The notes beneath the pieces were generated by a model. The model was not told the origin of the DNA and ran no database searches. It saw nothing but the letters and a program-made list of their open reading frames with translations. The position numbers and the translations under genes are program-made. A stretch of 64,000 nt of DNA from Volvariella volvacea V23. Lineage: Eukaryota > Basidiomycota > Agaricomycetes > Agaricales > Pluteaceae. The stretch spans positions 1,672,809-1,736,808 of the forward strand of contig KB722739.1 of NCBI GenBank assembly GCA_000349905.1. Reading direction: 5' to 3'. Positions 3,289 to 31,128 of this stretch are shown piece after piece. The first letter of the stretch is position 1; each line of letters begins with the position of its first letter.

Positions 3289-6200
3289 ATGTCAACAAGC
3301 CAATCTACTCAACGGACCACCACCAATGGCCAGTCCCACAAGCCATTAGTACCCACAAACCTCGTTACCACCGACGGACTTACCGTGCGCGCTCGCATTG
3401 ACGCCACCCTGACAGTCGACGACGTTATCAGGCAATTATGTGTTCACCTCAAGAAAGATCCTGCAAGCCACGCCTTGAGGGATGAGGACGACGAGTTGGT
3501 GACGAATGACAACCTGAGGAGGAAGGTTCAGGCCAAGGTTAATCTCAAGTGAGTCGACTATTCGAAACCTCGCGTTGGCTGTGCTTCACATGGCACAGGC
3601 TCGTAACTTCGCCTGCTCAAGATGCTCGAAATATTGTGGAGAAGCTTCGACGGCCGGGCAACAGCGATGTCAAGCTTACTTTGTTCTCGCTGCAGAAATC
3701 CATCAAGGTATGATACAATGTTCGGAGAAGAAAATGGGGAACTGGCTAAATGCAAGGTGTAGGAAGGGCCATTTGCTCAGGAATTTTTGCGACAAGGAGG
3801 TCTGGCAGATCTGGCGGAAATAATATACAATGCAAATGGAAATGCACTGGCAGTATGTGTTCTATCAGATCTTCGTTCCATGGTTTTACTCACACTACGT
3901 AGTATGCCCTAACGGCGATGCAAAATCTGATGGAATTAGATTATGGATGGGCATACCTAGATGGCGAATTCATCTTCAAAGTCGTCCAGATACTGTCGTC
4001 CCCACAATCCCTTATCAATGTCTGTCGACCAGCAACGGCTATCCTGAAGAAGCTTGTCGAGGCAGACCCATCAAGTGCCCCAGGCGTGCAGGGAACAAGC
4101 TCTAGTACAGCGCCCCCAGCACTACCGCCTGGCTCTGTCTATCGCTATGGGTTCCCTGTGGTATTTGAGCAAATGCGCAAGGCGCCCGGGTTGCTGGAGA
4201 CGGTAATCAATCGTCTAGGGAGCGCTGACGCTGCTATGGCACAATATAGGTAGGGTGTCATGTGTTCATATTTGAAATGATTGAATAACGCCGCATATAG
4301 CATGATGCTAATCAATTCATTGCTCTCTCATGTGAGTGATGAGAGATGGGAGGAGTTTCTGGAAGACCTGGAGAAACTGAATGTGCGGAAAGCGGTTGCA
4401 GTTGAGTCGATTCTGGTTCGAATAGGATTCACCGCGACACAAACTGAACCTGCCGTCAGCGAAAAATGGATCCTCATACAACAGAAGATCTGACATCCTG
4501 CATCTTAGACTTTCAAGCTAACATAATCCGTGTTACATATCGTAAGAAGATCACCCTCGTGAATCCGGAGGTTCCTTCGCATGCCCGGATGCTTCAAACA
4601 ATCTGGCAACGGAGTCAACTCCGAGAGGAATTCGACGAGCAGGGCCAAGTTGTCAAATGGCAGAAGCTAGGGTTTGACACAGAAGATGTGATCAGTGAAT
4701 TCAACGATGTTGGCGTATTAGGTTTGGAATGCTTGGTACGTCCACTTGACACTTTCTGTGCTATTCCGGGTACTTAATAGGTTGACTACGCACAGTACAA
4801 ATTTGTTGAAAACGATCCGGACTTTTCTAAGGTGCTGTCTCCGACCTGTCATATCAAATCTGGACAGCGTTAATTGAATATGATATTAGGTTGTACTGGA
4901 ACAACTAAGCCGACCGCAGACAAGGCGATGTCCGATCGGGAGAGCTTCCAACGAGGTAGTTGAACTTTTGTCCGAACATTGGGCAATTTTCGCGCCAGGA
5001 TGTCCGTATGACTGCCTGCGTTGATTGAAGCATTCCGTGGCTGATAGACCAATAGATTCCACATCAACAACATTTCAACCATTCTTCATGGACTTCCATA
5101 AGGTCCATTCGCTCGCAACTCGGTTTTTCCTTCGGATGTGGAGCGAGAGTGGGGCTGCCTCAGGCGACTTCTCCAAGGTTTCCGCCCTCGTTCGCAGCCA
5201 GTCAGTCGGCCTTTTGTTAGAGTTTCTTACTCTGCTATTACTTAACACAATTTCAATTGTTCAGGGTCAAAGTTGCTCTCCGCAGCGAGCATGTTCGCAA
5301 GTGGCACGAGGTCGAACAGGATTTACTTGAAAGTGAATACAAGACCGTCAGGGATCGGCAAATGAAGGAGCTGGAACTTGAGGACGATCTATTGAATAAA
5401 GTTCCGGTTCGGTATGCCTCGATCACAACCCTCGATTTGTGGTTCTACTCAGAGCATTCTAAATATGTCTATCTTTGTAGGAATCTGCGAAGCAAACTTT
5501 ACAAGGAGTCATACGAATTCGTTCGTCAACAAAGAATTCAATGCCTGTTACAGGGTGCTTGGTTTATCAACGCCCTACCGCAGGGGTCACCTCGGGAACC
5601 AGCTCGCCGACCCACTCGGCCATGGCGATTCATGCGATTGGTAAGTTGAAGGCCCTCTCAGCTTTTGTTCTTTTTGTTCTCCTCCTTTTGGTTTCTTTCC
5701 CTGCCCGTTGATTTGCGGCCGGGAGTTTTAAGATTGTGCTGAAATCGGCATTCACCTGAACAACACAAATTTTATTTTCTAGGATACAAGCTTAAAGTAC
5801 CTGCATTATGTTGACAGCGCCATAAAGTTCCCTGTCCGCAATGGGCTGGAAGATTTACCGGAAAGGATTGACATTTCTATGATCAGTGAAATCGCCACAG
5901 GCACTTGTGCTGGACCTCCGAACGTCGTCCGCGATCAAAATGATCTGCCACCAAGCTCTCCCCTTGTCCCTTCCCCTTTGTCCTTTTCACTGCTGAGTGC
6001 ACATGAAGGCTCCTTAGCAGATCAGATTGCCCCTGACCAAGCTCGATGGGCGGATTGGACAGATGGCTTGAATATGCTACGTCGTGATGGTGGTCACGTT
6101 GCCTCCAAGGAGACAGCTGGTTTCGTTCAGGCACTCACCGAGATTGGCCTCAAGATTAAACTTCTTGGTGCGTTGCCGTTCTGTGCTCAATCATGTGATG

Positions 6201-6360
6201 TGTATGACACAACCTCTAACTTATCCTGTTATCCCCTTCTGCTTTCACACATTGCCCCTTTCTGTCAGATTTGTCTGGGGAAATGGTTGACATACCCAGT
6301 GGGCTGGTGGCAGGCCCACCGCCCCCACATACCGATTTTTTCTTCTCTGATTTGATTTAA
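3289..6360 (+). CDS. ELMO/CED-12 domain protein (Rac-GEF partner)
   Basis: ELMO proteins bind DOCK-type guanine nucleotide exchange factors to activate Rac at the plasma membrane. The gene has about ten short introns. The N-terminal exon carries a small ubiquitin-like/RBD-type region (TVRARIDATLTVDDVIRQL). Armadillo-like helices follow (YALTAMQNLMELDYGWAYLDGEF, then LINSLLSHVSDERWEEFLEDLEKL), and then the ELMO core with HARMLQTIWQRSQLREEF and GFDTEDVISEFNDVGVLGLECL. After that come helices of the PH-like region (KWHEVEQDLLESEYKTVRDRQ) and RIQCLLQGAWFINALPQ. The last exon, in frame after an intron near 6170, ends GLVAGPPPPHTDFFFSDLI at TAA 6358-6360. Its poly-proline is typical of ELMO tails that bind the DOCK SH3 domain. 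The start is the first ATG of the open frame. Exact exon borders in the 4.2-5.3 kb stretch were not all checked. Confidence 0.88.
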
Positions 6361-12100: not shown

Positions 12101-12857
12101 TGTGATGATCACAGCGACTTGTACACGATTGTTTAGTGCGGGCAAAAACACTCTTGTATCATACCCAAGACATTTTTGTTCGTCTTGTAAATTCTCTTGC
12201 ACCCTCACATCCATCCAATCTCTATCTCTCTCTTTCTTCCTCTCGTATTATGTTGATCCGCTACATCATTTCTTCATCATTTCATTCTCATTGTCATTGT
12301 TCCTCGTGTCGCACACACTGTCTCAATAGATCACCGCATAGCGCTTCGCTTACATCCATCTCCCTTCCCTCATCGCTAGTCAAGGACCTTATTACAGTTT
12401 AGTACTCTCCTGACGTGTACACCCAGTCTTTCTAAGAGCATCTTGGTGCTGCGCACCGACCTACTGAACGGAGCGTGTAAATAACTCAGCTACAGGTCCT
12501 AGGCATACCGCCTCTCCTATCTTACATTCCTCTAATTGTGGCTATTCACACTTCAGGTCTACAACCAAATTTCTTACACTATTGCCCCCATTTAAGTACC
12601 CAAGCCATCGAAGGAAACAACATAACACATCCTCCAGGCTGCCAAACACCATGATGCAACGTTTACGGCAGAGTTCATCCACGCTCAGTACCCTAGTGAG
12701 ACTCTTGTCTTGTCTCTGTCCACCCTTCACCACCAGGCCCTGCACCCACTGTGCGGTTTATGTAACACCTAGTGCCAGTGAATGTGCATTTTTCACAACT
12801 CGAAGACGTCCTTTTTCGACACTAGTGAAGTAACCCAGTAAAAAGAAAAGACGAAAC
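12101..12857. other. intergenic region
   Basis: This stretch is pyrimidine-rich with short TC repeats around 12220-12300. It contains the 3' UTR of the upstream gene and the promoter of the Nudix gene. Short open frames exist but none has family resemblance. Confidence 0.5.
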
Positions 12858-14314
12858 ATGCTTCCGCTGACCAATGGTCATCAGCTGAGAGCCCTAGGGA
12901 AAGGCCGACTGTTACGCGCAGCAACCATTCTGACAAGAATCTCACGAAATTCAGCCGCGCAGTGCTCTCATTGGGTTGCCACTCGACGCGATTGCCCCCC
13001 TGTACGCAACGAGAAGCACCATTACCACCTATCTCTCCGTCCGGAGCCTCTCCGACTGCCCACAGGACATCAAAGTCTCCTTCCACTAATCCATACTTGC
13101 AACAACCTCATTATCAAACACGACCCCGCGCAACCTCACCACACCATAGTTGGCACCAAAACCTCGGATGGCGCAGTCGTGAACCAAGAAAGCGTGATTC
13201 CATTCGTGCTTTCTACTGGTACAAGTGCGAAAGCTGTGCCGAAACCTTTGGGATACCTGAGGACAATGGTTGTGGAGGCTTTGGTGGCGGATCATGAAGC
13301 GCATGAAAGTACGGGGAAGAGGTCTCCCTGGCACCTGGTCTATGACCAGAGTGGGAAGGGCAGTACGCTACCTTCGATGATCTCATTTGCTCCATGGGTG
13401 AACCAAAATGGGAAGAGAGCGAGGACCTTGCAGATAGAGAGAATTGTTCAGGTATGGAAAAGAGAGAACTTTTTTAAGGATATCTTACGCGGTATGTCCT
13501 TCCCCAAATGACGTGTGGTTTGACTCGAATGTCGAGTCTCACAGGCTGGAGCAATGAACCATACCCCGTATACAGCCATCCTCCTAAAGGAATGACTGCT
13601 CACGGGGACCCTGTAGCATTTGCCATCGAACGAGCTGCACTACCTTTGTTTGGATTTCCAAATTTTGGCTCACTTCTCATAGGTGTGTATATCCACAGTT
13701 TGACGAACGTGATCTAATATGCTATTGTAGCTTACTTCCAGGACCCTCAAACCGACAAAACAATGATTTGGGTTCCACGACGGGCTCTCACTAAGCGCAC
13801 GTAAGTTCAACACGCTCTGTACCTCTCCCTTGTGAAACATATACATGATACCAGATGGCCTGGAAAGCTAGACGTCACAGTCGGTGGTGGAATAGGGCTC
13901 GGCGATACCTCTCTTACAACTATTATCCGTGAAGCAGCGGAAGAAGCTTCCCTAGACCCACACGACATAAGTCCTTTTATTCGCCCTGTTGGTGCTATAC
14001 CCTTCCCCAACCGTTCCCCCGCAAACTGGCTTCTCCCCGGCCTGTATTACCTCTTCGATCTCCAATTACCGCCAGATAACTCGGTTCGCCCTCGTACCAA
14101 TATTAAAGACGGTGAAGTGGATAGCTTCGAATTGATGGATATCGAAACGGTGTTGCGCGAGCTTTTGGCGGGGAAGTTCAAATCTAGCTCGGCGATGGCG
14201 ATGGTTTCTTTTTTGATTAGACATGGGTTCATTGCGGAGGAGAGTGATGCGAGGTTTGAGGATGTGTGCATATTGCTGAATAGATGTGTAGACTTGCCTG
14301 TTCCTTGGCGTTGA
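12858..14314 (+). CDS. DUF4743/Nudix hydrolase (plant NUDT24 / fungal TPK-like type)
   Basis: This is a Nudix enzyme of the type with an N-terminal DUF4743 domain, related to proteins that hydrolyse damaged thiamine diphosphates (YJR142W-like). Four exons (12858-13491, 13545-13682, 13731-13800, 13855-14314) give 433 residues in frame. DUF4743 covers about residues 75-260 (IPFVLSTG, PLGYLRTMVVEAL). The Nudix box is VGGGIGLGDTSLTTIIREAAEEASL. It has Asp for the usual first Glu, and the final Gly is replaced by Ser, the latter being usual in this subfamily; the catalytic REAAEE is intact. The first roughly 75 residues are Arg-rich and nearly free of acids, which resembles a mitochondrial presequence. 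The start is the first ATG of a frame open without interruption into the conserved part, but it remains uncertain. The spliced product is otherwise complete. Confidence 0.85.
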
Positions 14315-14670: not shown

Positions 14671-15240
14671 TCAACAGACTTCCAGTCTTGTGAGATGATA
14701 GGACAATACTCCCATATCAGTACTTGCCGAGCTTAGATCCTGGAGCGCTTGGAAGAGGCAATTGATTCTGGCCATCCAGTGGTTCCTCCAGCCAACAGGT
14801 ACGAACGCCGAGTCGTAGCGCCTCAATGCGTCATAGACACGCCACATCGCAACTTCTCCTGTTTCTGGCGTCGTAGACCAGACTGGGATAGATAGAACGC
14901 CACAGTCCGCTTCGTCAAGCGCTGGGGCGTCTCCTACACCTTCGCCCAGTGTCGTTAGGTTGTCCAGCAACCCACTGCCTGAGGTCCACTCTAGTTCGAG
15001 GATTTGAGATCCTAGGTTGAAACGTATTCTGCAGACCCACGTATCGTCTGAGGAGTCTGGAAAATAGGTCCGCTCGTTCGGAAGGTAAACGTGTGCTTCG
15101 ACGTTGTGGATTGGAAGGTGAGCTACATGGTTCCAAATATTGCAACCAGGGTGGTTAGCAACGGGACTCTTGGGCGTTTGCAGGGGCTCCGAGTCCACCA
15201 TCGTCAGAGGGAATATGGAATAGCGCCAGTGAATAGTCAT
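14671..15240 (-). CDS. hypothetical protein, 189 aa, single exon
   Basis: I do not recognise this protein. It is an uninterrupted frame of 189 residues, acidic and Trp-rich (HWRYSIF, NIWNHVAHLP, DDTWVCRIRFNL, LELEWTSGSG, VAMWRVYDAL, GWRNHWMARI). The even composition and lack of low complexity suggest a folded globular protein rather than a chance frame. No signal peptide or membrane segment is visible. A second in-frame Met lies at residue 14. It sits 365 nt downstream of the viperin-like gene on the same strand, with a 23-nt A run between them. Functional association is speculative. Confidence 0.5.
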   Translation of the reverse strand: MTIHWRYSIFPLTMVDSEPLQTPKSPVANHPGCNIWNHVAHLPIHNVEAHVYLPNERTYFPDSSDDTWVCRIRFNLGSQILELEWTSGSGLLDNLTTLGEGVGDAPALDEADCGVLSIPVWSTTPETGEVAMWRVYDALRRYDSAFVPVGWRNHWMARINCLFQALQDLSSASTDMGVLSYHLTRLEVC

Positions 15241-15484
15241 ATCGAGTAGAGTATAAAATGAGAGATGCAGTAGGGGTGGTTGTAAGAGGCGACAAACGAA
15301 TGGCTGGTCGGGGGCTATTAGAACAGAACTGTGGGGTTATGATGTTCACATTCGACGTGATTTATAGTCTGCAGCAGGGGTCTGCGCTATATCCATAATT
15401 GGGACATTTGAGGCACCAGCTGTGGAGCTACGCGAACGAACAACAACCATCGTGCATATTGTTCCAACGGGGGCAGTATTGAAC

Positions 15485-15604: not shown

Positions 15605-16816
15605 TTACCAGTCCAAGGAAGTACCATTATTGCCTTGAGAAGCGAGGGCCCTGAAAGGCCCGTTCCTCTTCCAATCGAATATTCCACCTCGATTGACGAA
15701 GGCGTCCTCGTCGAATCCTGCGTCTTGCAACGCTGCCTGTACACCCACTTTCAGAAGAGACCTTCCTGGCCTCTTACCACCATCCAGGCAGTTAAGGAAT
15801 CTGTATTACAGTTCACCCGTCACCATGACCTGCTCGGAGACGTCAGGGGTGTGTGCTCACCTCATTTCTTCATCGAGGTTTAGATAGGAGTCCTTCATAG
15901 ATCGGTTGTTCTCGGGAACTAAGCACGCTTGAGACAAATGGCGATCGATAAATGCCTGAAATTGCGCGTCGTTTATGACCAGCTTTCGGCCATCCCGAAG
16001 TGAGCCCGTTTCAGCGCCGGTATTTTCGCCGTCCAAGAGAAGTACTTGGAATACCTTAGTGAAGGAATTAATCTACCTTCGCACGCATGGGATGAATGTG
16101 CCTCAACAAGTTACCTTCCACCGAAAGGGATCTAATTGCTCGATACATTCGTTCATATCCTCCTGCCAATTTAGCCTGAATCACCGCTATTATGTTAGCC
16201 TCGGTATTTCCGAGCTGGAAATCACGCACGCTGTTACGACGGTATTTATTTTGAGTTTGATTCCTCTCCTTTTACACCACTCCGCAACTTCGAAAACTCT
16301 GCCTGCATGCTTGTTGCCAGACTTCCCGTTCTCCTTTCTTCCAAGCTGGGTGTTGATGTCAGGATCAAAGCTGTCGCATGAAATAGCCATTACGTCCAGG
16401 TATTGGCCATATCTGTCCATCCATTTCTCTGTAACTTTAGAACCGTTGTTGACAACGGAACATGACTCCAGCCTGAGCTCCTCCTTGCAGAAGCGGAAAA
16501 TCTCTCCAATGAAATCAGCCTTCAGAAATGGCTCTCCGCCACTTATGTTAAGCTTTCTCATCCCCGCTTCTGCAAGCAGGCGAAGCCCACGCTTGGCCTC
16601 GTCGATGTCTAGAATTACAAGGTTCTTAGTAGTGTGAAAACAAAATTCACAAGCATAATTGCATTTCCTGGTAGGGCAGTTACTTCAACGGCCGTAGTGG
16701 TACTAGTAGACGCACCGGTGCGGGAAGTAGTTCACAGATATAGGAACAATAGGCTGGACATCCCTAGAGAGAGGAAAAAGAGCAACGCTCCCAAGCGTAG
16801 AGCGGACCCAGTCCAT
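15605..16816 (-). CDS. viperin-like radical SAM enzyme (RSAD2 family, ddhNTP synthase)
   Basis: Viperins use a [4Fe-4S] cluster and S-adenosylmethionine to convert a nucleoside triphosphate into its 3'-deoxy-3',4'-didehydro form, a chain terminator for viral polymerases. Five exons (complement of 16716-16816, 16230-16667, 16115-16175, 15861-16054, 15605-15800) join in frame to 329 residues. Visible landmarks are VPISVNYFPHR, the cluster motif C36-NYA-C40-EF-C43, FHTTKN, ISGGEPF at 75-81, [72 protein letters not shown] and the terminal LDW. A C-terminal Trp is a family hallmark used for cluster loading in animals. The long ER-binding amphipathic helix of vertebrate viperin is absent; only about 20 residues precede the conserved part. 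Family membership is near certain. The substrate nucleotide is not known from sequence. Confidence 0.93.
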
Positions 16817-17455: not shown

Positions 17456-19430
17456 ATGGTTCAAACTTATGGTGTGGCCAGGGAGAGCAATGCAGAGCCA
17501 AGCAGTTCGAATAACGAAACCAGTGCACTGCTGGGAGGCGATAGAGATACTACAGTTAAGCGGACTAGTGGGAAAGCAGATGGGCACGCGTCTATTACCA
17601 GCTGCGTTAGTAACCTATTGAACACTATCATTGGAAGTGGTACGTGGTGCTTTGACTGCATGCGTGCGCCTTCTGAGGTTGCTGTCTTGCCAGGTATGCT
17701 AACGTTTCCAATGGTGAGTAGGCAGTTCTTTTTCCCGTTCTAGCAAACCTACAGTCCTCACAGGCAATGGCCTCTTCCGGCATCATTCCTGGTATCTTGA
17801 CTTGCGTATTTTCCGGAGGTGTTGCAGCATTTGGCCTGTATCTCTTATCTTTGTGTGCCACGAGGACACCGCATCGACGTGCTTCCTTCTTTGCTGTATC
17901 CCAACTTACATTCCCGAAGGCAGCTGTCTTTTTTGATGCTGCAATTGCTACGAAGTGCTTCGGGGTGTCAATAAGGTCAGACTCCATTTTAGCCGCGGCG
18001 CAACGTCCTATCAGAAACCTTGCGCTTGTTCGTTGGGAATTATATCTGAACGTGCTTGTTTATGGGTGCTCTTTGGCATTCCAATTCTATCGTATAGCTA
18101 CCTTATTATCATCAAGAGCTTGATGCCGAACGTTGTTGCGTCATTATACCATGACTTGACGTCTCCTTCCACAAATCCACCTGAATGGACGCTAAATGGT
18201 GGGAACTGGCTCATCATCATGATGGCAGTCCTTGTTCCTCTCTCGTTCCTCCGCCGGTTAGATAGCCTTCGACATGCGAGCTACGTCGCTTTGTTTTCTA
18301 TTGGTGTGTTGATCAAAGGTGCATCGTTCAGTCAAACTCACCGTCATTTTAGTTTACCTCGTCGTCATCGTTGTCACCTGCTACATATGGCCATTAGAAG
18401 GCACACCGGAACGAGGCGAAGTGCATTTGATCCATTTTACACCGGATTTCGTGTCTACTTTTCCTGTTCAAGTCTTCGCGTTTACGTGTGCGCAGAACGT
18501 GGGCCTATCACTTAACCCCTATTTCGTGTTAATCAATTCCCTTCGTAGATTTTCCCCATTTACAATGAAGTCCGGTCCAATACGCAGCCAAGGATGAACC
18601 TCGTTATTGGAACCGCCATCGGTAGTGCAACAGTAACGTATGAGCTCATTGCAATTCTCGGCTATTTGACGTTTGGTTCCAATGTCTGTACCCTCTATTG
18701 AAGCTGTCGATGCGTATCATGCTCATCCTTTTACAGGTTGGATCAAACATCATTGCAATGTATCCAGCAACTTCTTTATTCATAGCAGTTGGACAGCTTG
18801 CGATTGTCATACTTGTCATGCTTTCATACCCATTGCAGGTCTTGCCATGTCGTAATTGTTTAGACAAGGTGTTCCATGTAGGACATGTACACCCGCCAAA
18901 GCCTGTTACAGGAGGTGAAGAGGACTCGGAAGAAGTCGAAGAAGATGAAGATCATGCCAGCGCAGACATGACCCCATTGAAACACACCCTGCTGACCTCG
19001 CTTATTGTTGGCGCAGGGTTCATCATTGCCTTCTTGGTTGATGACCTGAGAATTGGTTCGGTCTATTAGCATCTCTCGCGGACTTTTATTGAGGCTATTG
19101 CAGTGCTTTCGTTTGTCGGGGCTACGGGATCGACCACTATTTCGTTTATTCTACCTGGGTTGTTCTTCTGGAAGGTAATTGCCAAGTGCTGGCGTGCTTG
19201 CCACTCAGACTGACTGACACTTCGATTCAGCTGACCCGCAACGACCAGAGTGTCAGCAGAAGGCTTAACTGGGCCGCGTTCGGCTTGGCAGTGTATGGTG
19301 GTTGCGTCTTTGCTTTCTGGTAAGGTGTTGGCAGTTCTGCATAGTGCACACGCTCACAGTATGCAGCCTCGGGTACAATATCTATAAGCTGTATCATCCG
19401 GTAATGGGTTCAGGATACAGGGGGCATTAG
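17456..19430 (+). CDS. AAAP-family amino-acid transporter (AVT/SLC38 type, probably vacuolar)
   Basis: This is a multi-pass membrane protein moving neutral or cationic amino acids across the vacuolar or plasma membrane. Translation is taken from ATG 17456: MVQTYGVARES, then a short Ser-rich cytosolic tail with a di-leucine-like SALLGG. The first helix carries the family motif SVTSC-like ASITSCVSNLLNTIIGSG, continued across an intron by MLTFPMAMASSGIIPGILTC. Later helices include GNWLIIMMAVLVPLSFLRRLDSLRHASY, AYLVVIVVTCYIWP, FPVQVFAFTCAQN, IGSATVTYELIAILGYLTFG and VGATGSTTISFILPGLFFWK. A long acidic loop (GGEEDSEEVEEDEDHASAD) sits before the last helices. Several introns are needed, including one with the weak donor GTTCGG near 19053 that restores DDLRIVLSFVG, and a long one near 17973-18095. 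The likely end is NIYKLYHPVMGSGYRGH at TAG 19428-19430. Confidence 0.88.
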
Positions 19431-19848: not shown

Positions 19849-22800
19849 ATGTCTTCGTCTTCGAGCACCGCCTCTGCTGTTGTGAATCCTACAACATTTC
19901 ACGCTAGTTCCTCGGCATCAAGTTTGCCCCAAACCATCGATGCATCGCAATCTCAACACTCCGCACGTCCGGTCTCTGATATGCAGCAGGTGAACGGCGA
20001 GTCAAGCACTACTTCAACCCCACCAACTGCGTCGGATCCAAACATAGATGTTGACCCATCGATAATCGAGGCACTTAAGGGAAAGGATAGGATTTACGTT
20101 CTCAAACTCGGTGAACAGATGGAAAGTCTTATACAAGACCGAAGGTGTGTGCTGTTTTCTGCTCTACACGGCCTAAGCGCCCATGGAGACGTTTCCCCAC
20201 TCCCCACTTCCCCTCTCTTTCGCCGTCGGCCGTGTGTACTTGTTTCTGGTGGGAACACTACGTCATGGATTCCATCTACTGCTTTCATTAATTCCCCTGC
20301 GCGTTCGTGCTTACTGACATGTATCGCGTTGTTTTGCCAAGGCCCAAGTTGGAAACTCAACCTTCAACTTCATACCAACGTCTGCTCGTACATCGATGCT
20401 CTGCCTATTACAAGCTGTCGCCAGAAACTGATCTAACTACCAAAGCCATTGTGGTTCATCTTAACCCGGACAGTAGAATGTACGTATCCTGCCAGCAGAG
20501 ACCCTATCTTACCGAGACAGTCGTTGACAACCCCCTGATAGACCCTCACGAAGAATTTTTGAGCTGGTTCCCGCTGAAACGACTACGCAGCCCGCATTTA
20601 AAATCATGCGTCGAGTTCCCGATAAAAATCGCTCTAAACCTCAGTCTCAGGCTGGCTCCGTGGCAGGGGAAGACGCAGACTTGTCGGATAACGACCCAAT
20701 ATCTGAGACAGGAAGTCTAGGCGGTCGCAGTGCAGCCGAGTCGATCAAGAAGAGGATGACTATAGAGGAGCGCGAAGCGGCTTATAACGAAGCTCGTAAC
20801 CGCATTTGGATGGGATTTGACGAAAATCGGAGGGAGAAGGAGAAGGATATGAGTGCAAGCTCGTCCTCTCTTAGCCTGGCCTCAGGGTCGACGAACGGAG
20901 GTGGAGGAAGCAGCTTGGGTGATGGGGATGATGGCAGCTCTCCTGCTACAGAGAGCGAATGGTCGGGGCCTTCAGTTTCAAGGGATAAAAAAGAGGGTAA
21001 ACGAAGCATGAACCCTATACCTGCGGGACCTGGAAGGTCATTGCGCCCATCCGGTCTTTATCATCCAAATGGGTCGACGAGCTCTCGCAATTCCAGAGCC
21101 GCTTCTCCTGCAGTGAAATATGCCTCTCTGTACGAGCCCCAAGCACAAGCCTCATATGACGCGTACCAGCACCCACAACCCCCTAATTCTGGATACCCCG
21201 CACCTTACCCCTATCCCTACCCACCTCCCAACCAGCCGATGCACCATCCTCAATACATGAACCCTTATGGATACTATCCTCAACCATTCCCGCCGTACCA
21301 TTCACAACCGCCTCCGCAGCCTAACGCTGATCCCTCCGTTCCGCTGGACATGTACCAACAACCCCCTCATCCCGCTCCTTATAGTGGTCCTTACTGGCCA
21401 CATACGTCATCTCCCGCACCCCAGCAAGCAGCGCAACCTATTCAATCGCATCCTCCCCCTCCTCCCCCTCATCAAGGCCATAATCATCCCGTGAATCCTC
21501 CGCCTCCACCTAACCCCATACCACAATTTCCACCATTCATCCCACCATCACACCCATACGCATATTCTGTGAGCTACTATCCGCCCCCTGGACAACCAAT
21601 GCACCCTCCACCGCCTCCTTCGCACGCACCTCCTCCATCCCTTTACGATCCAAGTGCACCAGGTGCTCCAAATGGACCAGCCCTCTCAGGCCCCAACCTA
21701 GGAAATATGGCGCCTATCAATAGTCGCAATATTGCTACAAGAGGTACATCCCTACCTTCAAATATAGGAGTAGTCAATAAACCAAGAAATCCAGGCCCCG
21801 TACCTGTGCAGCCACCGCGAACTTGGAGTTATGGACCTGGTGTGGGTGGGCCTGGTTTTCCAGCTGGTTCGGTGGTGTCGTCGTCTTCATCAGGTGGAGA
21901 GACTGTGGGACCAAGGTTTAATAGTCCCCGCAGAGCAACGGGCGGTACCGGTGGTATGAACAATAGAGCGTCATCAAATGACGATATTGCCTCGACAACA
22001 GTAAGTTAACTATCATCTCTCTTATACTGGAAAGTGGCTTAAGTCGCCTACTTCAATAGTCATCATCTACTACATCCTCTGCTTCAAGGAAGCCACCATT
22101 GACACCATCCTCCCAGCATCCGTTACCGGCTCGTCCAGACTGGGCTGTTGGTCTTAAACCACAGCCCTCATTACGCCACCAAGATAACAGCACCAGAACA
22201 ACCCCACCTTCCAATGGAAATAGTGCTAGAAATGGCGCTCCCAACCGATTGCCATCACAGCCCCCAGTTTCACTGCAAGGGACCGACTTTCCGCCTCTAA
22301 TCGGTAGTAACGGAAGCGCACCTGGAACTGAGAGAAGGACGTCAGTAGTACCCGCTGGTGCATGGAACACACCACCACCATTGAGAACTGGAATATTGTC
22401 TCCCAATGGAGGACCGAATAATCAAAGATTGGAGGAATCCGATCATGGGTTTGAGCGGCCGCCTCCAAAGGTGGGTCTCTTTAACTAAGCTGTTGAGCCT
22501 AGAACTTAAGCTTCTTGTGCACTCCTTGTTGCAGTCAGCGGAGTTGTATAACCCCAAGACTAGCAGGAAGTCACCCCAAACCAATGGATTGAATAGGACA
22601 TCGCCTTCTTCGTCTTCCTTTGGGGAAAGGGACAGGGAGGGTCGTCCATTGCTGTCACACGGGAATGATTCTGTCAACCACCTGGTAGGACAAGTCGCTT
22701 CGCTGTCAATGATGGACGAACAAGGCGCAATCAACACGAATACCAACGGACTAATAATCACGGCTGGAAATCCGAATGCAAGCGGTTCATCTAGTCTTAA

Positions 22801-23787: not shown

Positions 23788-24856
23788 ATGTCCAGACCAA
23801 TTCCCACCCTCTCTCGACTTTCATGCCCAGCTTGGCAATCCCGTACAGTTGGGTATGGCCTTAGATACGGCCAAACATGCAATTTCTTGGGTGATGGACA
23901 ACAACTCAAGTTAACCCGGCTGTTACAGTCGGCGGCAGGTAACGACACCTATAGGCCAAACTTAACCCGGAAGCTTCAAGCTGGTCCTCATCGGCTCCCT
24001 ATCTCTGGAGATCAGTACAACACTATCACTTTTTACGATATTCCTTCTTCACACCCCATCATTGCCTGGTCCCCGAACGCATGGAAGATTCGGTGTGTTG
24101 TATTTATGCTGACGCTTTGCATATCCTAAACGCCAAGCGTCGTTATACCTCTGCAGGTATGCCCTAAACTATAAAGGGCTTCCTTACAAGACCGAATGGG
24201 TGGAATACCCTAATATTGCCGCAATCTGTAAGAGGATTGGGGCCGCGCCGACTGCAGCGAATCGACTGGGACAGTCGCCTTTCTACAGTGTTCCTGTCAT
24301 TCGCGATCTGACAAGCAATCGCGTCATCTCAGATTCCATCGCCATCGCACGGTACCTCGACGAACAGTATCCCGACACCCCAAAGGTTCTCAGGATTGAC
24401 GAGGGTTTTGGAGTTCTGCAGTATGCATTCCTGCAGGCATTCAGAAACCCCATTTTATCTGTTCTTATGCAATTTTGTGTGCCAAAGGTCATTCACATTC
24501 TGAACCCAGAAAGCCAAGCCTACTTCAGAAGTACTAGGGAGACTCACACCTTTAAGAAGAGGTTGGAAGAGGTTACTCCGAGAAAGGAAACTGGAGACTG
24601 GGAGAGGGAGTGGAAGCAAGTTGAGAAAACTTTTGGCAAGGCAAACGACTGGTTCATCAATGGTGGTCAGGAGGGAAAAGTGTTCATTACTGGCGATAAT
24701 CCGGTCTTCGCAGATTTTGTGATTGGTGGATATCTTATGTGGGTGAAGACTGCATTTGGTGAGGATAGTAGAGAATGGATGGATGTATCTTCATGGCACG
24801 GGGGCAGGTGGGGCACGATTAACAAGGAGCTGGAAAAATACGCCACGGTGTTGTAG
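23788..24856 (+). CDS. glutathione S-transferase-like protein (basidiomycete etherase-type GST)
   Basis: This is a cytosolic GST-fold protein. Two exons (23788-24092 and 24157-24856, 64-nt intron) give 334 residues in frame. The thioredoxin-like N-domain starts at ITFYDIPSSHPIIAWSPNAWKIR and continues YALNYKGLPYKTEWVEYPNIAAICKRIGA, SVPVIRDLTSNRVISDSIAIARYLDEQYP. The cis-Pro (VPV) and the SDS glutathione-contact motif are both present. The helical C-domain follows, with TGDNPVFADFVIGGYLMW, the conserved N-capping Asp region. The VEYPNIAA...GAAPT pattern resembles the fungal GSTFuA/etherase-type group implicated in handling wood extractives or lignin fragments. The first roughly 70 residues are atypical; either an upstream intron is missed or the ATG at 23788 is not the true start. 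Conserved homology begins near 24020. Confidence 0.85.
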
Positions 24857-29116: not shown

Positions 29117-31128
29117 CTAAAGTCCGTGCTCTGCGACTTTATAAATTTGCAGCTTTTCCGTGACCACGATCTCCTCGGCGCGGACATAAACGTCCACCAA
29201 ATCCTGATACTTCCTGACGACCTCAGGTCTGGGCTCGGCAACACACCTTAAGCCGACGATCTTTCCACCCGTCATGTCTTCCAAGGTGCCCTCATGTTTA
29301 GCCGTCCTCCACCAGGCGTACTTGGCAAGTATGGCACCGCCCAACCCAGCGGCTTCCTTGGTTGATGATACGTAGACCTTCATGTCAAATACATCCTAGC
29401 ATACCCGAAATAGGGCCTCAGTCAGCACGGTATCCTCGGAGCAGGCACTGAGTATGAGAAGCAAGGACACGGTGGGACTCACAGCAGCCAACTGTCTGAT
29501 AGTGTGATTCGCAGAGGACCCACCCGTAATGATCAACGACTTCAAATGAGGGTGATGAGCCGGAAGGATGGCTTCCACGCGAGACAGGATGGACAAAAAC
29601 TGCGATTCCAAAATTGCGCGTGGATGCGCCTCGTCTGGGATCTTCTCAACCCTCGAAACGCCGCCGCTCTCGTCAGTGGTGAAATAATACTCTCCCTTGA
29701 CACCCGGTGGGATGATCTCTGGCAATGGAAAGTAAAAACCGAGGGCACCGCTGTTCCCCGCCGGAGATGCCTCTACGAGCTCGTTGAAACGATCCCAGCT
29801 TTTCTCAGCGTAGACGTCACGGATTTGCTCTCGGACTAGGGCGCCGTTCTTGTAGCACAGCATTGCGATCTGTCCATCGTTGGTCGGGTGTGATAGGAGA
29901 TGTGAAGTTGTTGTTCGTTTTGGAGGGGATCCAGAGGAAGGAATCGAAAGAAGGAATGTGGTTGATGTACCCAGTGACAGGATGGCATCGCCAGGAGTGG
30001 CAAGCGCCACTATCGATGCTGGGTTGTCTCCCGTGAATGGGGCCACGATACACTCTTTAAGGACATTGAACATGTTATCAGCAATTGCGTCATCGTTTCA
30101 TTCGAGAAAAAAACCAGGGTGTATGATTTCAGAGAGGGAGATTGTGAACTCACCAGGATTGAACCCCCATCGTTGCACCCACCACGAGGCAACCTTGCCC
30201 AAGTTTGTGCCTCCGTGGACAGGCTCTGGTCCCAGCTTTGCACGCAATTCGGGGCCGCCACAGGTTTGCAAGAGGCGATCTTCCCACTTGCATGTAAGAA
30301 CATTCATCAAGTTCATGCCACTGGCATCAGAAACTTCGATCGGTGCAATGGCCCCGAGGAATAGGGATGCAACAAAAGAAGACACGAGGGAGATGCGAGA
30401 AGTAGCTTTATATTCCTCTGGATGTAATCGGGATATCTGACGGCATGGATGACAAAAACGTCAGGATATGGAGTTAAACCCTCGCAGCGGAAGAGTTGAT
30501 GTGATATGACAAGGAGATGAAAGATAATACCTTGGCGATTTGACTGCCTGTGAATCGTTCATAGGCCCTACTTCCAGTAACATCGGCAAGGGCTTGGGCT
30601 CCACCGATTGATTCCTCCAGCAAACTGCATTCGGTGGCGGTTGAAGAATCTTGCCATATCGGGGCATTAGGCAAGGAGAAGGCAGAATCGGCCAATTGCT
30701 CGGTCAGGGAGCGCGAGGGGTCCAAGTTTTTGAGGAGAAGGTCGGCAGTAGTAGACCAGTACACAGAACCATGTTGCTATTAAACCGAATGCAGCGTTAG
30801 CCTCTTTAATTATCGACAGGGTGGGCTCTCAACCAACCTGGCCTGCGCCCGATACTGCTACGATGTCTCTGAAGTTGACGCCAGCGGCCTTCATCCGATC
30901 CATCAAGAGGTCGAGCGACTCGATCCACATCGCAACGGGGGATGTAACCTCGCCCTCAGCAGGGCCACGTATCGCGCCATTGGTGGTCTTGTACGAGGGG
31001 AGGTCGTTGTCAAAGTGGACAGAGGACTCGTGGACGATGGACTCGTCTTCGGTGACCAGGACAGCCTTGAGCTGCTGGGTGGAGAGGTCGAGACCGAGGA
31101 AGAGCGGGGCGTCAGCCTGAGCAGCCAT
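29117..31128 (-). CDS. xylulokinase (FGGY carbohydrate kinase)
   Basis: Xylulokinase phosphorylates D-xylulose to xylulose-5-phosphate, feeding xylose and arabinose carbon into the pentose phosphate pathway. The start at 31128 (MAAQADAPLFLGLDLSTQQLKAVLV) carries the nucleotide-binding phosphate-1 motif GLDLSTQ. VAVSGAGQ-QHGSVYW spans an intron. PIWQDSSTATEC and GSRAYERFTGSQIAK follow, then DASGMNLMNV, which contains the catalytic Asp of the family. The C-domain has GDAILSLGTSTTFLL, LIITGGSSANHTIRQLAA and EAAGLGGAILAKYAW, ending VAEHGL at 29117. Length and motif order fit fungal XKS1-type enzymes. Five or six short introns are needed. Confidence 0.94.

Follow-up and report, generated by a model that had tools for sequence, protein, structure and literature searches.

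An intact viperin gene in the mushroom Volvariella volvacea V23 and its paralogue in a second Agaricomycete clade

Viperin-like enzymes of two fungi serve as points of comparison, those of Trichoderma virens and of Thielavia terrestris, the latter an ascomycete. The T. terrestris SAND (TtRSAD2) dehydrates CTP and UTP, according to the available text of PMC9642334; the enzyme described here is likewise a fungal SAND, and we liken the two by published description and not by sequence. T. virens has two viperin-like enzymes in one fungus, represented by PDB 6B4C, 7N7I, and 9DGW and, for the second enzyme, by 9DFN; they share a common fungal viperin fold with our protein and are 45 to 51% identical, in a structure comparison, to the model of its near-identical public counterpart. 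By their PDB titles, 9DGW and 9DFN were solved with CTP and SAM, and 9DFU is an F40H variant of the second enzyme; our literature search found no paper describing that second enzyme. The family has already been recognized across eukaryotes, as stated in the accessible part of PMC10732462. Our literature search, which fell short of most subscription journals, found no paper joining viperin with basidiomycetes, and among the papers on viperin together with mycoviruses none, judged by listing, concerned a fungal viperin.

The gene studied here lies on the minus strand of the window, the 64,000-nucleotide stretch of DNA from V. volvacea V23, the straw mushroom (Agaricales, Pluteaceae), that was analyzed (assembly size, 35.4 Mb), from position 16816 to position 15605, and its five exons join in frame into 329 residues. 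Exon 1 (16716 to 16816) supplies the start codon, a short hydrophobic N-terminal segment, and the beginning of the radical SAM domain, and exon 2 (16230 to 16667; Pfam Radical_SAM, 71.2 bits) carries the CxxxCxxC cluster motif, GGEP, and the NGS and SCDSFD strands. Exon 3 (16115 to 16175) ends in DPFRWK; exon 4 (15861 to 16054) holds VFQ, GEN, and the MKDSYL tyrosine motif; and exon 5 (15605 to 15800) encodes the C-terminal part with the RGG tail, the terminal LDW, and the stop. The four introns measure 48, 54, 60, and 60 bases, and all four run from GT to AG. The earlier note had proposed this five-exon, 329-residue reading from the letters alone, and every motif that it listed, the terminal LDW included, is present on the minus strand. 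A public gene model from V. volvacea WC 439 (AX16_001741, P0001 in our set), annotated only as “hypothetical protein,” is also 329 residues long, and its sole difference is at residue 137, which is D in the window protein and G in AX16_001741. Because the two agree except at that residue, the proposed splicing is supported. As read from its sequence, the gene is complete and intact. That it might instead be a relic or a misassembled gene on which selection has been lost is very improbable, given the open frame, the regular introns, the invariant catalytic residues, and the almost identical public model; the earlier note's view of its motifs as intact was supported.

Comparison with 177,635 distinct PDB sequences placed a mouse viperin chain at the top (E value, 2.2e-98), a match that excludes chance resemblance, followed by the viperin-like enzymes of T. 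virens and Nematostella, with MoaA far lower (2.9e-8). The window protein scored 235.6 bits against NCBIfam NF038283, a viperin model that includes prokaryotes (cut-off, 180), and 383.2 bits against the narrower viperin model TIGR04278, below its cut-off of 450. It also matched the PADLOC pVip profiles at 1.2e-65 and 3.1e-58. MoaA is the alternative family that the earlier note had named as an example of a placement that would overturn the assignment, and MoaA models do touch the radical SAM core, weakly, at 56.1 bits with a cut-off of 284. In a 49-row quick tree, however, which carried SH-aLRT support and no bootstrap, the viperins, the window protein among them, were split by a long branch (SH-aLRT, 100) from five MoaA rows, one of which (L098) scored slightly below the MoaA cut-off, and contig C7 of the V. 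volvacea genome carries a distinct MoaA-like gene. With the tree, the PDB ranking, and the subthreshold MoaA score all pointing away from it, we rejected a MoaA-like identity; the chance that the protein belongs to that or another radical SAM family is negligible. Judged from sequence comparison, the window protein is a viperin (SAND), and the earlier identification as an RSAD2 homologue holds on the strength of NF038283, the PDB ranking, the tree, and the structure match of the near-identical public protein.

A homologue search with the window protein returned 1,081 proteins, the top ones among the best 120 listed being of mushrooms where named, and a search with a Fusarium query returned 2,525, of which the best 120 listed include many that are ascomycete by name. 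Fungal viperins are thus widespread and some are characterized; the V. volvacea gene is no first and adds one member. The likeness to prokaryotic viperins (pVip) consists of the profile matches and of 29 to 40% identity over the best segment in 80 loci, the best of 146 kept from an alignment-based search of genome contigs; 13 of the 80 were placed in an earlier quick tree and 9 in the 49-row tree, and in these trees prokaryotic viperins fell outside the eukaryotic clade that holds the window protein. A single-protein search of the genome contigs gave no match.

V. volvacea has a second complete viperin gene, copy B, on the plus strand of contig C1 (1623298 to 1624396). Its three exons (4799 to 5389, 5474 to 5661, and 5735 to 5897 of locus L010), separated by two introns, encode 313 residues ending in LEW; its counterpart in the public V. 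volvacea record is AX16_004557 (99%), and copy B and the window protein share 56% identity. Two intron positions are common to both genes, one in phase 0 after RWK (following exon 3 of the window gene) and one in phase 2 within the R before FLNC (following exon 4), which indicates that both copies descend from one intron-bearing gene. We then placed the copies in a more careful tree of 78 eukaryotic rows, made up of 76 of the 157 listed proteins and both proteins of V. volvacea V23, from which the long-branched P0079 and P0134 were excluded. Clade A (50 rows; support, 98/92) and clade B (12 rows; 100/99) were joined at 100/99. The earlier quick tree, which included 13 prokaryotic rows and placed P0079 inside B, gave SH-aLRT values of 97 for A, 95 for B, and 92 for the two joined. 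On this sequence evidence, the two Volvariella copies belong to two well-supported, anciently separated Agaricomycete clades. Among the matches listed, both clades are present in Volvariella, Pluteus cervinus, Collybia nuda, Dentipellis sp., Amylostereum chailletii, and Agrocybe pediades. Seven alignment columns separate the clades at the chosen threshold, including S104/G and A128/G in core strands, although G at the latter position also occurs in 5 of 18 other eukaryotic rows; these two positions may be close to where SAM or the nucleotide binds. The copy-B viperins P0084, P0122, and P0123 (from fungi including Artomyces and Dentipellis) have NPVAEDN or APVAEDN in place of the CLVPENN of the window protein, possibly a lineage-specific change beside the tyrosine motif.

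The two enzymes of T. virens raise the question of whether that pair was the origin of the A/B split. This was not favored by the 49-row quick tree, in which the T. virens rows were both fragments, one from the second enzyme and one from an engineered variant (9DFW), the natural first enzyme not being included; the two fragments paired (SH-aLRT, 97) and grouped beside ascomycetes (84). The mushroom pair looks like a duplication separate from that of T. virens.

An alignment of 40 proteins was used to locate catalytic residues, and an AlphaFold2 model of P0001, which is unlike the window protein at one residue, was built from an alignment of 40 sequences. C36, C40, and C43, which form the CxxxCxxC [4Fe-4S] motif of the window protein, the GGEP residues (G77-G78-E79-P80), and Y257 of the SYL motif, which we take to be the catalytic tyrosine of published work, were invariant in all 40, as were, among others, N108, S110, S130, R198-W199-K200-V201-F202-Q203, E210-N211, S256-Y257-L258, and R302. 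The published viperin mechanism employs a conserved active-site tyrosine, as described in the available portions of PMC8124187 and PMC9642334. The model (mean pLDDT, 86.9; pTM, 0.84) found its best PDB matches in UTP- and CTP-bound mouse viperin (TMt, 0.94 to 0.95; 50% identity) and in the T. virens enzymes that carry CTP and SAM. Mouse viperin (RSAD2; PDB 6Q2P/6Q2Q) has the whole catalytic domain in common with the window protein, along with CxxxCxxC, GGEP, and the SYL tyrosine, whereas the stretch from the RGG-x-x-W motif to the last residues is longer in the window protein. The C-terminal tail (residues 314 to 329) has low model confidence and is longer than in animal rows, so triphosphate binding by the tail stays putative. 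At its very end, the terminal LDW fits the C-terminal signal [LIM]-[DES]-[WF]. According to the accessible text of PMC10623007, this is the client-recognition signal of cytosolic iron-sulfur assembly, and viperin is named among its bearers. Within the tree set, the signal ends 44 of the 50 clade-A rows, 7 of the 12 clade-B rows, and 13 of the 18 remaining eukaryotic rows; it also ends 117 of the 157 related proteins when incomplete models are counted. The LDW end, which matches the cytosolic iron-sulfur targeting signal, probably has the concrete role of cluster delivery.

Taken with the family assignment, these features lead us to put the probability that the window gene encodes a working viperin, that is, a radical-SAM nucleotide dehydratase, at roughly 0.8. 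For cluster loading, substrate, product, and antiviral effect, we infer the following course. The three cysteines would bind a [4Fe-4S] cluster, which cytosolic iron-sulfur machinery reading the terminal LDW probably supplies; the cluster would cleave SAM, and the resulting radical would attack a nucleoside triphosphate, most likely CTP and perhaps UTP too, as for the T. terrestris enzyme. Loss of water would yield a 3'-deoxy-3',4'-didehydro (ddh) nucleotide, which would halt RNA chains made by mycoviral polymerases. We consider antiviral use of the nucleotide product a slightly better than even prospect; a role against mycoviruses is plausible and, by analogy, reasonable.

The N terminus bears on where the protein resides in the cell. 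The long vertebrate N-terminal helix of mouse viperin is absent from the window protein, as the earlier note had said of the endoplasmic reticulum-anchoring helix; its further view that the protein is probably soluble was not secured, as many clade-A viperins retain a short hydrophobic N-terminal segment. Many of them open with M-[DNE]-W-[LVI]-x-S-x-L: the N terminus is MDWVRSTLGSV in Volvariella, MNWLQSTLGSV in Serpula, and MNWLQSTLASV in Ramaria, and that of Dentipellis (MLSWVQSKLPSV) is similar. The N terminus of Volvariella copy B is MTAPLHDPSGRLVP, and Pluteus copy B does begin with a hydrophobic stretch. Boletales N termini deviate, as in MKFSWLDISIPFF, and several gene models, of whatever group, are truncated. 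In the P0001 model, residues 2 to 8 are drawn as a helix, with low confidence (mean pLDDT of 62 for residues 1 to 10). The best N-terminal hydrophobic moment, calculated with no shuffle comparison, was 0.43 in the window protein and 0.43 in copy B; having tried this measure as an indicator of a membrane helix, we set it aside, since the equal value in copy B gives no discrimination.

The clade-A gene tree conflicts with taxonomy. We examined the conflict by AU tests on groups that were picked by taxonomy, though after inspection of the tree; apart from Volvariella, the tested genera assigned to the Agaricales are presumed members of that order. Forcing the 19 Agaricales rows together was rejected (AU P value, 1e-53), as was forcing together Hysterangium and Ramaria, both Phallomycetidae (0.0004). 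The viperins of Amanita rubescens and Boletus coccyginus share 85% identity, compared with 82% between Boletus and Paxillus and 72% between Amanita and Pluteus. In the 78-row tree, viperins of Amanita fall beside Boletales, those of Hebeloma beside Tulasnella, and those of Hysterangium beside Pholiota (P0057, P0045, P0056, and P0060). Two other constraints were not rejected, namely, Boletales without Amanita as one clade (P = 0.496) and a pairing of the A copies of Volvariella and Pluteus (P = 0.304). Volvariella copy A sits beside Serpula in the 78-row tree (98/88), and we do not claim horizontal transfer into Volvariella itself, because the Volvariella-Pluteus constraint survives. The GC content of the region is 0.475 to 0.486 against 0.49 for the window, and third-position GC is 0.527 in the window gene, 0.395 to 0.556 in nine other window frames (frames, not proven genes), and 0.691 in copy B. 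Since the region is close to the window in GC content and the third-position value of the window gene is within the range of the other frames, there is no compositional sign of recent foreign origin. For clade A as a whole, the discordance may reflect horizontal transfer, hidden duplication with loss, or contamination of public assemblies. In the accessible part of PMC10732462, the history of viperin in eukaryotes is described as ancient descent plus horizontal transfer.

These observations can be drawn together into one scenario, which we regard as improbable as a whole: mushrooms would have their own system of two viperin genes, which arose by an early Agaricomycete A/B split and diverged at the core strands (S104/G and A128/G) and the N terminus, so that the copies may differ in ddh-nucleotide or in cell place, and clade A would move horizontally between mushroom lineages. 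If this were true, transfer of clade A between mushrooms would match what is expected when mycoviruses shared among hosts select for an antiviral gene.

The surroundings of the gene bear on a different account, in which the protein, although a dehydratase of the viperin family, serves the mushroom chiefly in some way other than antiviral defense, its ddh-nucleotide or related product acting in metabolism or as a natural product. This account overlaps with the dehydratase reading, and we consider it unlikely, though well above negligible. The available text of PMC9642334 argues for functions beyond antiviral activity, terms the fungal enzyme promiscuous, and relays an earlier hypothesis that it makes antiviral natural products; moreover, both copies occur together in six named species among the matches listed. 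Counting lightly against it, domains typical of biosynthetic clusters were absent near the viperin gene in a Pfam scan of 20 of the 52 window open reading frames of at least 150 residues, covering 0.2 to 32.9 kb and leaving aside short exons. Six of the 20 matched Pfam and 14 did not. The matches were NUDIX (13805 to 14314, plus strand, approximately 1.3 kb away from the viperin 3' end), an amino-acid transporter (17937 to 18515), SUZ (20528 to 22009), a glutathione S-transferase (24113 to 24856), an FGGY kinase (29396 to 30097), and PH_12 (5783 to 6355). The open frames preceding the NUDIX domain (window 12834 to 14314) may represent additional exons of the NUDIX gene. We considered the NUDIX frame as a nucleotide-cleaning partner and found nothing that links it to viperin. 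Directly downstream of viperin, a 221-residue open frame on the minus strand (14671 to 15336) has no Pfam match and may be a gene. Around copy B, 2 of 10 scanned open reading frames matched Pfam, both to KIN17. Viperin and CMPK2 are neighbors in animals, and we took Thymidylate_kin to be the CMPK2 domain; searched exon by exon through the whole V. volvacea genome, that domain appeared in three pieces, all on contig C15, and no CMPK2-like kinase was found near viperin. In this the V. volvacea gene differs from vertebrate-type viperin with its CMPK2 neighbor.

Of the accounts weighed here, that of a working nucleotide dehydratase remains the one we prefer. To our knowledge, few direct antiviral effectors of filamentous fungi are known besides RNA silencing. 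Volvariella is listed as a host of a double-stranded RNA virus in the accessible part of PMC10224137. Two results go beyond the earlier finding of the gene itself, the A/B duplication and the conflict of the clade-A tree with taxonomy, and the paralogous clades lend themselves naturally to comparing which substrates are chosen. In a cultivated mushroom reported to host a double-stranded RNA virus, a viperin gene would make it possible to ask directly whether the fungal enzymes restrict mycoviruses.
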